DNA from: Peptostreptococcus russellii
Lineage (GTDB): Bacteria; Bacillota; Clostridia; Peptostreptococcales; Peptostreptococcaceae
DNA length: 64,000 bases
Reading direction: 5' to 3'
NCBI RefSeq assembly: GCF_003012055.1
Contig: NZ_JYGE01000003.1
Location: 372,001-436,000, forward strand
Position 1 is the stretch's first letter, and each line of letters starts with the position of its first letter. Made by a program: the position numbers and the translations under genes. Below, in pieces: positions 16,869-33,520 of this stretch. The notes beneath the pieces were generated by a model that was not told where the DNA came from, made no database searches, and saw only the letters and a program-made list of their open reading frames with translations.

Positions 16869-19586
16869 TTATAAGAGTTCGCCATATTTCCTTATGAATT
16901 TTCTCTTAAATAAAGTAACAAGAAGCATGTATGCAACAATAGTTACAGCAAGCCATATAAAGTAAGCTCCTGATAGTGGCAACAATCCAATTGATTTTCC
17001 AAATTCTGTAAATGGAATAGTTGTAAGTACAGCAATTCCAGTAAATGTCAATATCATTACAGGAAGTGAAGCTCTACTTTGAATAAATGGAACCTTTGGA
17101 GTACGAATCATATGTATAACCAAAGTCTGGCTCCACATGGACTCTACAAACCAACCAGCTTGGAATATAGCTATATAAGCAGCTTGTGTAGCAGGGTCGC
17201 TAATTTGACTAAACAACAATCCACCTGTCATAGCAGGGCAAATTATAAAATACATTAATAGATATGTTGTTATATCAAAGATTGAACTTGTAGGTCCAAA
17301 CCAAACCATAAATTTACCGATTGAAGTAGCGTCCCATTTCCTAGGAATCTTTAAAAACTCCTTATCCACATTGTCCCATGGTATAGCAGTACAAGATAGG
17401 TCATATATTAAATTCAATAGTATCAGATGAATTGAAAGCATTGGTAAAAATGGTAAAAATGCACTAGCTATTAATACTGAAAATACATTACCAAAGTTGG
17501 AACTTGCAGTCATTTTTATGTATTTAATCATATTTGCATATGTTTTACGACCTTCAACAATACCTTCTTCAAGCACCATTAAATCTTTTTCTAATAGTAT
17601 TACATCAGCAGATTCCTTTGCTATATCAACGGCTGTATCAACTGATATTCCAACATCAGATGCCTTCATAGCAGCCGCATCATTAATACCATCCCCCATA
17701 TATCCAACACTATGGCCCTTTCCTCTTAAAACTCTGATAATTCTTGCCTTTTGCTGAGGCGATAACTTAGCAAATACACTTATTTTCTCAGCAACATCAC
17801 CAAGTTCATTGTCAGTCATTAGTTCAACCTCAGAGCCAAGTAGTATTTTTTTAGAAGGAATATTTACGTGACGACATACAGACCTAGTCACCTTGTCATT
17901 GTCACCAGTAAGAACCTTTACACCGACACCGTGTTCTCTAAGAGCCTTGATAGCTGAAGCAGTAGATTCTTTTGGTGGATCTAGGAAGGCAAGATAGCCC
18001 ATTAAAACCATATCACTTTCATCTTTAACTGAAAACTCACCAACTGGTGATGGATTAGTTTTTTGAGCAATTGCAATTACTCTCATACCGTCCTCATTAA
18101 GTTTGTCAACTTTATTTAAAATATATTTTTTAAGTTCAATAGTTAACTCTCTAACTTCACCTTTAAACTCTACATAACTACATATAGAAATCATCTCTTC
18201 AACAGCACCTTTGGTAATCATTTGAGTTTTACCGTTTTCTACTACAACGCTCATACGACGACGTTCAAAGTCAAAAGGAATTTCATCTATTTTATTATAT
18301 TTTTCTGATAAACCCTGTAAATCAGGATGATCTTTTTTTTCTTTTTTTGTTCGATCTATAATGGCAATATCCATAAGATTTTTTAAACCAGTCTGATAAT
18401 AGCTGTTTAAAAAGGCATGCCTTAGAACTCTAAAGTCCTCTTTGCCATGAATATCAAGATGATAAAGTAACACAACTTTATCTTGTGTAATAGTACCAGT
18501 CTTGTCGGTACACAGTATATCCATGGAGCCTAGATTTTGTATAGAGTTTAAATTTTTTATAATAGTTTTTTTCTTAGACATTGTTACAGCACCTTTTGCA
18601 AGAGAAGTAGTAACAATCATAGGTAACATCTCTGGAGTAAGTCCTACGGCTATAGAGATAGCAAATAGACCTGCTTCTAACCAGTCACCTTTAGTAATTC
18701 CATTTATAAAAAATACTATTGGTACCATTATCAACATAAACTTGATAAGTAGCCAAGATACTGAATTGACACCCTTTTCAAAACTTGTTTCTATAGCATC
18801 TTCACTGATATCCTTAGCCATATCACCAAGTATAGTATCATCTCCAGTAGCGACAATAATAGCATTTGCACTTCCACTTACAACATTAGATCCCATAAAA
18901 GCAAGATTTTTTGTGTCTGTTAAGGAATCATGAGTTTTTGAGCTACTTTCTGAAAATTTTTCAACAGCAACACTTTCTCCTGTCAGTGCTGATTGGCTTA
19001 TAAATAAGTCTTTTGATTTAAAAATTCTCACATCAGCTGGAACCATATCTCCTGCTGATAGATGTATTATATCGCCGACAACAACTTCATCCATTGGAAG
19101 TTCTTTTTCAGCAGTTGACGGTCTAATTACACATGTAGTAGTAGTGATCATTTTTAAAAGATTTTCTGCAGCATTACCACTTCTAGTTTCCTGAACAAAT
19201 TTTAATATACCTGATATCATAACCATTGTAACAATAATTATGACAGTCATAGGATCTTCTTCGCCTGCCTTTGCCCAAACTATATCTGTCATAGTAGAGA
19301 CTAGAGCTAAAGCGATTAATATCACAGTAAATGGGTTGATAAATGCAGCAATGATACGTTTAAAAAGAGAATCTCCCTTATCATAAGTAACTTCATTTTT
19401 ACCATAAAGATCTCTAGATTTTTCTATAAAAGATTCATTAATACCATCAGAGCTACTATTGAATCTTTCAAATACACTATCTATATTTTCTGAAGAAGCA
19501 AACTTTAATCTATTTAAAACTTCTTGTCTTCTAGAAATATAAGCAGGTTTTTTTCTTATTTCATTTTTTTTATTTAGCTTTTTCAT
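16869..19586 (-). CDS. mgtA: Magnesium-translocating P-type ATPase
   Basis: P-type (P3B) ATPase that imports Mg2+ across the membrane. The start is taken as the ATG at 19586, which has AAGGAAGG 10 bases upstream, giving 905 residues; a TTG at 19607 lies before that site. Visible are the actuator motif TGES, the phosphorylation site CTDKTGT (about residue 359), TGDN, and the hinge [10 protein letters not shown]. About ten membrane segments are present, with the last cluster at the C-terminus. Features specific to the MgtA/MgtB group are the N-terminal region and the segment [10 protein letters not shown]. It is monocistronic behind a roughly 300-base structured leader with its own small ORF, so expression is probably controlled after transcription starts. 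Confidence 0.95.
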
Positions 19587-19590
19587 TTTT

Positions 19591-19631
19591 CTGTACCTTC
19601 CTTTCAAAAAAAATTTAATCAGAAAGTACAG
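19591..19631 (-). promoter_or_regulatory. Hairpin covering the mgtA ribosome binding site
   Basis: On the minus strand CTGTACTTTC (19631-19622) can pair with GAAA and GTACAG (19605-19591), leaving the Shine-Dalgarno core GGAAG bulged or partly paired. Just upstream, AGCTAA and TTAGGCT (19650-19630 region) form a competing hairpin that shares the CT of CTGTAC. This arrangement could switch mgtA translation; it is prediction by eye. Confidence 0.4.
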
Positions 19632-19655
19632 CCTAAATTCACTTAGCTTATATAG

Positions 19656-19772
19656 TTATGGCAACGGAATGGAAATAAAATTCCTCAAAAAGATTTCCAA
19701 ACCGGATGCATTTTTAATTAGCCTACACGAATCGGGGCCGTATTTTTCTGATTTACCTCGCTCGGAATCCAT
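19656..19772 (-). CDS. Putative 38-residue leader peptide upstream of mgtA
   Basis: A small ORF with ATG at 19772, an optimal AAGGAGGTG with 8-base spacing (19787-19781), and a TAA at 19658-19656. The product starts MDSERGKSEKYGPDSC, continues with RLIKNASGLEIFLRNF and ends ISIPLP-stop. The C-terminal Pro-Leu-Pro before the stop resembles arrest or poor-termination sequences of regulatory nascent peptides, and the first half is charged. It uses CGA, CCC, TCG, AGG and CCG, codons that look rare in the neighbouring genes. It lies within the mgtA leader, 69 bases before mgtA. I do not recognise it; alternatively, the region may be an RNA aptamer that happens to be open. Confidence 0.55.
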   Translation of the reverse strand: MDSERGKSEKYGPDSCRLIKNASGLEIFLRNFISIPLP

Positions 19773-19777
19773 TCCGT
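19664..19777 (-). promoter_or_regulatory. Candidate RNA switch enclosing the mgtA leader ORF
   Basis: A perfect 10-bp inverted repeat (ACGGAATGGA at 19777-19768 and TCCATTCCGT at 19673-19664, minus strand) would pair the start-codon region of the leader ORF with its last codons. The same 5' arm can instead form a local hairpin CGGAA-TGGA-TTCCG (19776-19763) with the ATG straddling stem and loop. The two folds are mutually exclusive. The enclosed about 94 bases are distinctly richer in GC than the flanks. It does not match the M-box consensus as I know it. Confidence 0.45.
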
Positions 19778-19899
19778 ACACCTCCTTAAATTCAAATTAA
19801 TATTAAAGATATGATAAAAATATAATTTTATTAATTAAAAAATCATTTAATACTTAAGTTTATTTTAAGTTTAAATCTGAATTCATCATACCTAAACCA

Positions 19900-33192: not shown

Positions 33193-33299
33193 TATTCTAT
33201 AATATATATTAATATATTGATTAATTTGACAAAGTGATGTATCATATATGATATAAGAAATTTATTATTATAAACTTATTATTAATACAACAATAACTT

Positions 33300-33520
33300 T
33301 GAAGGAAAGTAGTATGATATGACGGTTTTATAGAGAGAGGTTGTCGGTGGAAATACCTTAAATACGATATTTGAAGCAGTTCCCGAGTTTTTCAGATGAA
33401 ACTAAGTATTCTGAGACGTATAGCTGCGTTAAAGCGACTTGAGATATCACTAATGTGATAATCAGGGTGGTACCGTGAAGATTATTCGCCCCTGTAGTAT
33501 TTATACTATAGGGGTTTTTT
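33300..33520 (+). promoter_or_regulatory. T-box riboswitch, alanine-specific, upstream of alaS
   Basis: The leader has the Stem I elements AGAGAGAGG and GGTGG, a probable specifier GCA (Ala codon, 33376-33378 within TTGAAGCAGTTCCC), the T-box AGGGTGGTACCGTG (33464-33477) and a terminator (CCCCTGTAGTAT 33489-33500 with ATACTATAGGGG 33503-33514, then TTTTTT). Uncharged tRNA-Ala would stabilise the antiterminator and turn on alaS. The assignment of the specifier was made by eye. Confidence 0.93.

Follow-up and report, generated by a model that had tools for sequence, protein, structure and literature searches.

The leader ORF and its surroundings

The window analysed here is a stretch of 64,000 nucleotides from Peptostreptococcus russellii (contig NZ_JYGE01000003.1, positions 372,001 to 436,000). 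Its minus strand carries mgtA (19586-16869), the gene of a Mg2+-importing P-type ATPase, identified by the TIGR01524 equivalog with 1166 bits against a cut-off of 611. The start of mgtA was set at the ATG at 19586; an in-frame TTG at 19607 precedes the Shine-Dalgarno (SD) sequence GGAAGG. A 38-codon ORF lies upstream on the same strand, with an ATG at 19772, a stop ending at 19656 and the product MDSERGKSEKYGPDSCRLIKNASGLEIFLRNFISIPLP. It is preceded by its own SD, AAGGAGG (SD1, 19787-19781), at a spacing of 8 nt, and its stop is separated from the mgtA start by 69 nt. These coordinates, proposed in an initial annotation of the sequence, were confirmed. A candidate sigma-70 promoter (TTGACA-17-TAAAAT, 19928-19900, minus strand) matches the consensus at 11 of 12 positions and is weak, since the region holds five such sites against 7.0 in shuffled sequences.

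As had also been remarked, the ORF is richer in G+C (0.39) than the 100 nt upstream (0.11), the 69-nt gap (0.28), mgtA (0.33) and the window as a whole (0.30). Its G+C content is almost flat over the three codon positions (0.36/0.41/0.41), so that composition alone is not diagnostic of coding and does not separate a coding sequence from a structured RNA. No Rfam 15 family was found at the leader of the window at gathering score, and 40 further loci gave only the M-box and tRNA. Weak matches to STnc361, mir-59 and mir-7360 (E 1.6-7.2) at the window leader were judged to be due to chance. The sole Rfam match in the window is a T-box leader (RF00230, 118.5 bits, 33290-33496, plus strand), distant from the leader ORF. 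The open-access literature searched described neither this leader nor any leader peptide of mgtA or mgtE in Bacillota. The ORF can thus be called undescribed as first claimed, provisionally so, because most subscription papers and all preprints lay outside the scope of the search.

A family of leaders upstream of mgtA

A nucleotide similarity search with the leader in 100 relatives returned, besides the window itself, only short and mostly AT-rich matches. Homologues were therefore reached by way of the MgtA protein, which was used as query to collect 80 loci whose upstream regions were then inspected. Leader ORFs with their own SD recur upstream of MgtA relatives (METGSKHSPDPDGR..., MDAGSSNGINPDGR..., MDADGSSGAAPGKR..., MDSQRNKGIKGQG...). 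A scripted search identified one in 60 of the 80 loci, reduced to 55 after curation by eye, in which L029, L059, L063, L094, L096 and L097 were set aside and L033, with a TTG start, was added; several of those retained (L071, L085 and L098, for example) resemble the family only loosely. A fixed rule was also applied to 330-nt upstream regions, with equal lengths for the controls: an SD, followed by ATG or GTG, a second codon starting with GA and at least 14 open codons. This arrangement is present in 51 of 79 regions, against 2 of 79 on the reverse strand and a mean of 1.3 (maximum 4) in shuffled sequences. The search of related genomes for a conserved peptide, suggested at the outset as a check, has thus uncovered a family. 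Judged by these comparisons, the leader ORF is a member of a widespread and conserved leader-peptide family, whose broad kind is that of the leader-ORF translational attenuators.

Named carriers include Lacrimispora celerecrescens, Lactococcus cremoris, L. taiwanensis, L. petauri, Phascolarctobacterium faecium, Trichococcus palustris, Christensenella intestinihominis and Terrisporobacter. The leaders of three loci from the same family as the window genome (L122-L124) match those of the Terrisporobacter loci L075 and L077. Within the genus, mgtA was detected at E <=1e-200 in only 2 of 9 genomes, and the other mgtA locus of the genus (L022) showed no comparable leader ORF on inspection.

The peptides range from 9 to 65 residues and their C-terminal halves differ among relatives. 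The initial annotation had pointed to the terminal Pro-Leu-Pro as a possible arrest motif. This triplet is absent from the C-termini of the relatives listed, which share no conserved C-terminal proline motif, and a C-terminal proline arrest peptide was rejected as unlikely. The N-terminus, in turn, had been considered unlike any family; instead, it looks like a divergent member of the M-[D/E]-x-G-S-S...P-x-G-R family represented by these leaders. Some relatives (L024 and L025, for example) carry PEPD or PDPD, neither of which occurs in the window leader. The leader of L133 has 9 codons and no P1 helix (described below). A very short leader of 14 codons, MDPDGKRKNNIATR, precedes mgtA in L126 and L127, with no detectable P1 in L126, and is perhaps a minimal form.

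Several other features of these loci were recorded. A TAGATATT stretch recurs shortly 5' of SD1 in L046, L075, L077, L103, L122-L125 and L128; it might be the -10 region of a promoter or else an RNA element. In four genomes of the family, two mgtA-like genes are near neighbours (L022/L023, L126/L144, L127/L143 and L125/L142), and the second mgtA-like copy in genome G006 contains three in-frame stops. Metagenome bins assigned to archaea, Rikenellaceae or Spirochaetales also contain close MgtA relatives (L027, L028, L034, L038 and L041), owing either to transfer or to mis-binning.

Occurrence upstream of mgtE

The initial annotation, confined to the window, missed the occurrence of the leader before a second importer gene. 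A pattern covering the SD, the start and the early codons, with up to two mismatches, gave 18 matches in 391 genomes of the class, 14 of which are leaders upstream of mgtE (ten downstream genes were checked by BLAST and four were judged by eye). The proteins encoded downstream of L114 and L145 score 465 and 462 bits for TIGR00400, for a cut-off of 233. The remaining four matches were discarded, three of them standing, by reading, at the start of an AraC-type-like regulator gene and one inside a gene. A stricter exact pattern yielded two matches in 398 genomes of the phylum, one before mgtE and one before mgtA; patterns therefore undercount the leaders.

A covariance model built from 46 leaders (114 positions) was run on 245 genomes with E values up to 0.01. 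It matched 26 genomes, at one place each: 20 before mgtE, 3 before mgtA and 3 before neither. The window, itself in the training set, is among the mgtA matches with E = 2.2e-7. Mg2+ importer genes thus adjoin 23 of the 26 matches; ten of the 26 are members of the training set, and among the 16 outside it the proportion is 13. At L160 mgtA extends beyond the end of the locus and reaches 602 bits against the TIGR01524 cut-off of 611. The three matches with no Mg gene downstream (L169-L171, E 0.0018-0.008) were judged to be chance. From this distribution, one leader element is seen to serve two importer families that are unrelated, mgtA and mgtE.

The window genome has two full mgtE genes, upstream of which no leader was seen by eye, and the covariance model, run there with strict filters, matched only the window locus. 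In L104, L105, L109 and L110 the leader lies some 400 nt away from mgtE and the ordinary layout is absent; together with L155 and L162, these loci form a subgroup whose leaders stand several hundred nucleotides upstream of the gene. In L104 the mid-ORF codons (AAAAGCATAT...) look complementary, by eye, to a stretch just 3' of the ORF (...ATATGCTTTTC), which suggests a different output.

Constraints on the reading frame and the peptide

The reading frame was studied in a set of 71 non-redundant leaders, from which ten near-duplicates had been removed beforehand. Over codons 15-26, the leader frame has stops at 5 of 852 positions and the two alternative frames have 40 and 58. A CGAAG[TC] motif is present in 20 of the 71 leaders at seven different distances from the start, and in all 20 it stands in phase 0. 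Among the Arg codons at positions 3-16, CGA leads with 42 of 94, and in L165 the CGAAG stretch pairs with a CUUCG preceding the anti-SD.

The second codon is the most distinctive feature of the peptide, and the window leader itself has acidic residues at codons 2 (Asp) and 4 (Glu). An SD-preceded ORF of at least 14 codons was found in 61 of the 79 mgtA upstream regions, a count free of any choice of ORF favouring GA; in 51 of these 61 at least one such ORF has GAN (Asp or Glu) as codon 2, and the next most frequent dinucleotide class reaches 6. The reverse strand offers a qualifying ORF in 14 regions, of which 2 have GAN. All four GAN codons are used in the 71 leaders, where codon 2 is acidic in 69, in a set whose ORF choice and search patterns favoured GA; codon 4 is acidic in 21. 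Among 11 fresh matches of the covariance model (13 minus L161, whose peptide is the same as that of L160, and L163, which is locus L119 of the set), 8 have Asp or Glu at codon 2, the others having Ser, Asn or Ala. Variation is uneven between the two strands of P1: the start codon and codon 2 hardly change, unlike the bases they pair with (column 22 has A in 45 of 46 leaders, whereas U stands at the partner position in 36 of 46), a pattern consistent with a 5' side constrained by coding. The acidic second codon could also partly serve P1 pairing.

Alternative RNA helices

Three helices recur in the leaders. P1 joins the leader start to the far end of the ORF, OFF joins an anti-SD to the SD of the importer gene, and ON joins the same anti-SD to the early codons of the leader. 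ON and OFF are mutually exclusive through their common anti-SD, and P1 and ON form a pseudoknot since the 5' side of ON sits in the P1 loop. P1 and the anti-SD/SD hairpin had been overlooked in the initial annotation.

Taken alone, the window has all three helices at energies better than shuffled sequences. The 5' strand of P1 (19782-19768) comprises the end of SD1, the start codon and codon 2, and pairs with the last codons of the ORF (19673-19660) at -20.8 kcal/mol, with 3 of 5000 shuffles as good. The 5' side of ON, an anti-anti-SD in leader codons 7-18 (19753-19720), forms 26 pairs with the anti-SD segment (19648-19617) at -28.4 kcal/mol, matched by 2 of 5000 codon shuffles and by none of 5000 shuffled tails. 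The whole anti-SD segment is engaged in ON and its 3' half in OFF, an arrangement repeated in relatives; the OFF duplex with SD2 of mgtA (19605-19591) has -17.3 kcal/mol, with 2 of 5000 shuffled tails as good. At the level of sequence and energy, two mutually exclusive pairings are thus found, one of which would sequester the SD of the gene. The plain minimum free energy of the window leader is no better than that of shuffled sequences (z = 0.12). The structural signal lies in specific helices, shown by comparison and by targeted pairing tests. Pairing of codons 7-18 with 19648-19617 would also explain the odd peptide of the window.

P1 is significant (p <=0.05) in 62 of 81 leaders, a set unselected for P1 to which eleven family loci had been added by eye. 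Covariation was evaluated on alignments of selected leaders. The P1 alignment (A1) holds the 46 of 71 leaders with ordinary layout, 24 atypical ones and one of unfitting length having been left out. For ON and OFF, 31 leaders were prepared, 23 of which entered alignment A2 and 20 alignment A3, the latter picked by hand for ordinary layout; left out were the window, L037, L057, L060, L072, L091, L121 and L145, then L116-L118, and L026 was kept in the counts in spite of being misaligned at the anti-SD in A3. P1 is paired in 85.3% of cells in the 46 leaders, with a covariation of 0.452 against 0.267 in shuffled alignments (reached by 0 of 500) and 0.076-0.185 in slid ones. In the 20 hand-chosen leaders, ON is paired in 86.2% of cells (0.383 against 0.268 shuffled, 0 of 500; slid maximum 0.153) and OFF in 86.5% (0.271 against 0.215, 0 of 500; slid maximum 0.126). 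Stricter measures gave weaker results: for pairs altered on both sides, the number of shuffles (of 500) that did as well was 70 for P1, 62 for ON and 34 for OFF, and for further pair types it was 1, 10 and 70, in that order. The partners in OFF are GGCUGUACUUCC-like segments and the GGAGGUACAG of the importer. The ON partner in the leader is GGAAGU-NNNN-NCAGCCC or covarying forms of it, the second helix changing both sides in five of seven pairs.

The ON duplex was also compared between own and permuted partners in 49 non-redundant mgtA leaders, with no choice by hand. The own partner gives -18.66 against -14.97 for permuted ones, a difference reached by none of 20000 permutations; a control stretch, codons 18-33, also favours the own anti-SD in these leaders (-13.8 against -12.2). 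The own anti-SD is in the best tenth of partners of its leader in 8 of 49 loci (4.9 expected) and, in the reverse ranking, in 17 of 49. The ON duplex falls within the best 5% of codon shuffles in only 19 of 55 leaders. At the mgtE loci (13 of 15, L112 and L113 being without a detectable start with SD), ON has -17.5 against -13.8 for permuted partners (1 of 5000), and the whole 3' part -30.3 against -23.3 (0 of 5000). From these results, pairing with the anti-SD seems to dictate a large part of the conserved early coding sequence.

Proposed switch mechanism

The element is probably a cis-acting, translation-operated riboregulator, made up of an RNA switch ahead of the importer gene and a strong leader ORF that overlaps with it. 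With no ribosome on the leader, P1 would close over the leader SD and start, and the early codons would hold the anti-SD in the ON helix, a pseudoknot across P1, leaving the importer SD free. Under normal leader translation, the ribosome would break P1 and ON, the anti-SD could then pair with the importer SD in OFF, and the importer would be shut. The anti-SD core was found by motif in 26 mgtA loci. In 21 of them it lies 12-35 nt past the leader stop, in 2 it is more distant and in 3 it precedes the stop; in the window the distance is 27 nt. In most cases, then, a ribosome that terminates on the leader would not prevent the core from entering OFF. At low Mg2+, leader translation would fail, either because initiation is poor or because ribosomes drop off at the acidic start, the explanation put forward for MgtL and MgtQ, and the resulting ON state would allow the importer to be made.

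The conserved ORF and frame, the P1, ON and OFF pairings and the association with both mgtA and mgtE argue for this scheme by sequence comparison. We infer from them that translation drives the switch, the direction in which it works and the action of Mg2+ through the ribosome. Folding with a program that excludes pseudoknots gave a mean unpaired probability of the importer SD of 0.21 without ribosome and 0.126 with leader occupancy forced (Wilcoxon p = 7e-4, n = 49). A change of more than 0.1 occurs in the predicted direction in 12 of the 49 loci, and three move in the opposite one; in the window, SD2 is almost fully paired in either state (0.04 and 0.00).

A wider reading is advanced more tentatively: the ribosome of Bacillota may be the Mg2+ sensor for importers, through one M-box-independent leader-peptide/pseudoknot switch placed before mgtA and mgtE, in which the early codons would act both as an unstable nascent chain and as an anti-anti-SD, parallel to the enterobacterial MgtL/MgtQ logic.

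Alternative explanations

The same switch might respond to something other than Mg2+ acting through the acidic start, the leader reporting general translation capacity or the charging of Ser, Gly, Pro or Arg tRNA. Codons 3-15 are indeed rich in Ser (0.22) and Gly (0.17), and the frequency of CGA among Arg codons (42/94) agrees with such a signal. However, the Ser found at codon 5 in 44 of 71 leaders is encoded by AGY every time and never by TCN, a choice explained by pairing in the ON helix; there is no single-codon run like those of classical attenuators; and 23 of the 26 model matches precede Mg2+ importers. This explanation is unlikely.

A pure Mg2+-sensing RNA, in other words a riboswitch in which the ORF is incidental, would account for the recurring helices and the association with Mg2+ importers, and we regard it as rather improbable. 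The initial annotation had proposed that the ORF be taken as incidental if relatives kept the RNA structure and lost the frame; both are kept in the relatives, and the frame is preserved through in-frame changes in length. On the 5' side of P1 the start codon and codon 2 barely vary, whereas the bases opposite them do. In addition, a pseudoknot stabilised by Mg2+ would be expected to switch the importer on when Mg2+ is plentiful, the wrong direction, which makes the riboswitch reading less likely.

That the leader encodes a small protein acting in trans is very improbable: its N-terminus recurs and its SD is strong, but its C-terminal half is variable, its length runs from 9 to 65 residues and its N-terminal conservation follows RNA pairing. 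The MgtP leader supplied from a plasmid is reported, in the part of the source available, to have had no action on a chromosomal reporter (PMC3641672). A chance ORF without function, with which the unexceptional folding of the single sequence would agree, is hardly credible in the face of the kept frame, the P1 covariation, the importer association, the helices of the window and the controls of the ORF rule.

Significance

On comparative grounds the leader is real and conserved, and the translation-operated switch preferred here would be a variant of leader-ORF attenuation. In the literature searched, the leader peptides of Mg2+ importers are enterobacterial and the cis control described for Gram-positive bacteria is the M-box. 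If true, a ribosome-based control common to mgtA and mgtE would mean that Mg2+ sensing through translation is wider than thought, and the leader would offer a compact case of a coding sequence doubling as a pseudoknot strand. The Lactococcus relative (L051, from L. cremoris NBRC 100676) makes the switch testable, and the covariance model might be the starting point for an Rfam family of its own.

Comparison with known systems

In translational attenuation of the ermC type, a leader ORF governs the pairing of an anti-SD with the SD of the gene, and ribosome stalling opens the gene. In the present leader, by contrast, translation is predicted to close the gene and the leader start would be sequestered by P1.

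The M-box riboswitch (RF00380) likewise precedes Mg2+ importer genes and, unlike the leader element, is an aptamer. It lies upstream in 16 of 20 mgtA loci scanned, 19 of which have the leader, and in 3 of 20 further loci, nearly all mgtE; in L075 and L077 it stands some 1 kb away and may serve a different gene. The window gave no M-box match at gathering score, and relaxing the threshold to E = 10 over 19560-19860 gave none either; the window genome has one elsewhere (C4:22237). The leader is a control layer separate from the M-box and occurs without it, as in the window.

Two further elements share part of this setting. The M-box-associated uORF2/Rv1805A of Mycobacterium is also a small ORF with a conserved N-terminus; it lies downstream of the M-box and is described, in the available part of the report, as specific to mycobacteria and placed before pe20, unlike the present leader (PMC12810186). 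The mgtE motif of Thioalkalivibrio is likewise a candidate RNA before mgtE, reported from that genus only and, in the excerpt available, among riboswitch candidates as opposed to uORFs (PMC11109978).

The Salmonella leader peptides had been invoked by the initial annotation on account of their proline content. This kinship holds in idea and in the acidic second codon, as in MgtL and MgtQ, and fails for the Pro-Leu-Pro end, which is not conserved. An acidic residue in the first codons is a feature of the present family as well, in peptides too short for an alignment to establish ancestry. MgtL is a leader of mgtA with an acidic and proline-containing start, whose EPDP motif, according to the accessible text of a study in E. 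coli, destabilises ribosomes, their dissociation at low Mg2+ being proposed to switch on mgtA (PMC11282234). It is described there as acting via Rho-dependent termination, while the anti-SD/SD helix found here suggests control of translation initiation.

The mgtQ uORF before mgtB of Salmonella is a short ORF with a strong SD and early acidic residues, at codons 2 and 5; from the portion of the report at hand (PMC8092293), mgtB translation requires Asp2 and Glu5 of the peptide and also depends on alternative stem-loops. Unlike the present leader, it has 8 codons and lies between mgtC and mgtB in enterobacteria, and that portion mentions neither a helix over its own start nor a pseudoknot (PMC8092293). 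The likeness is one of features: in mgtQ, alternative stem-loops set mgtB translation and poor translation of the leader raises the importer (PMC8092293, as far as the excerpt extends), the same logic as is proposed here for mgtA and mgtE.
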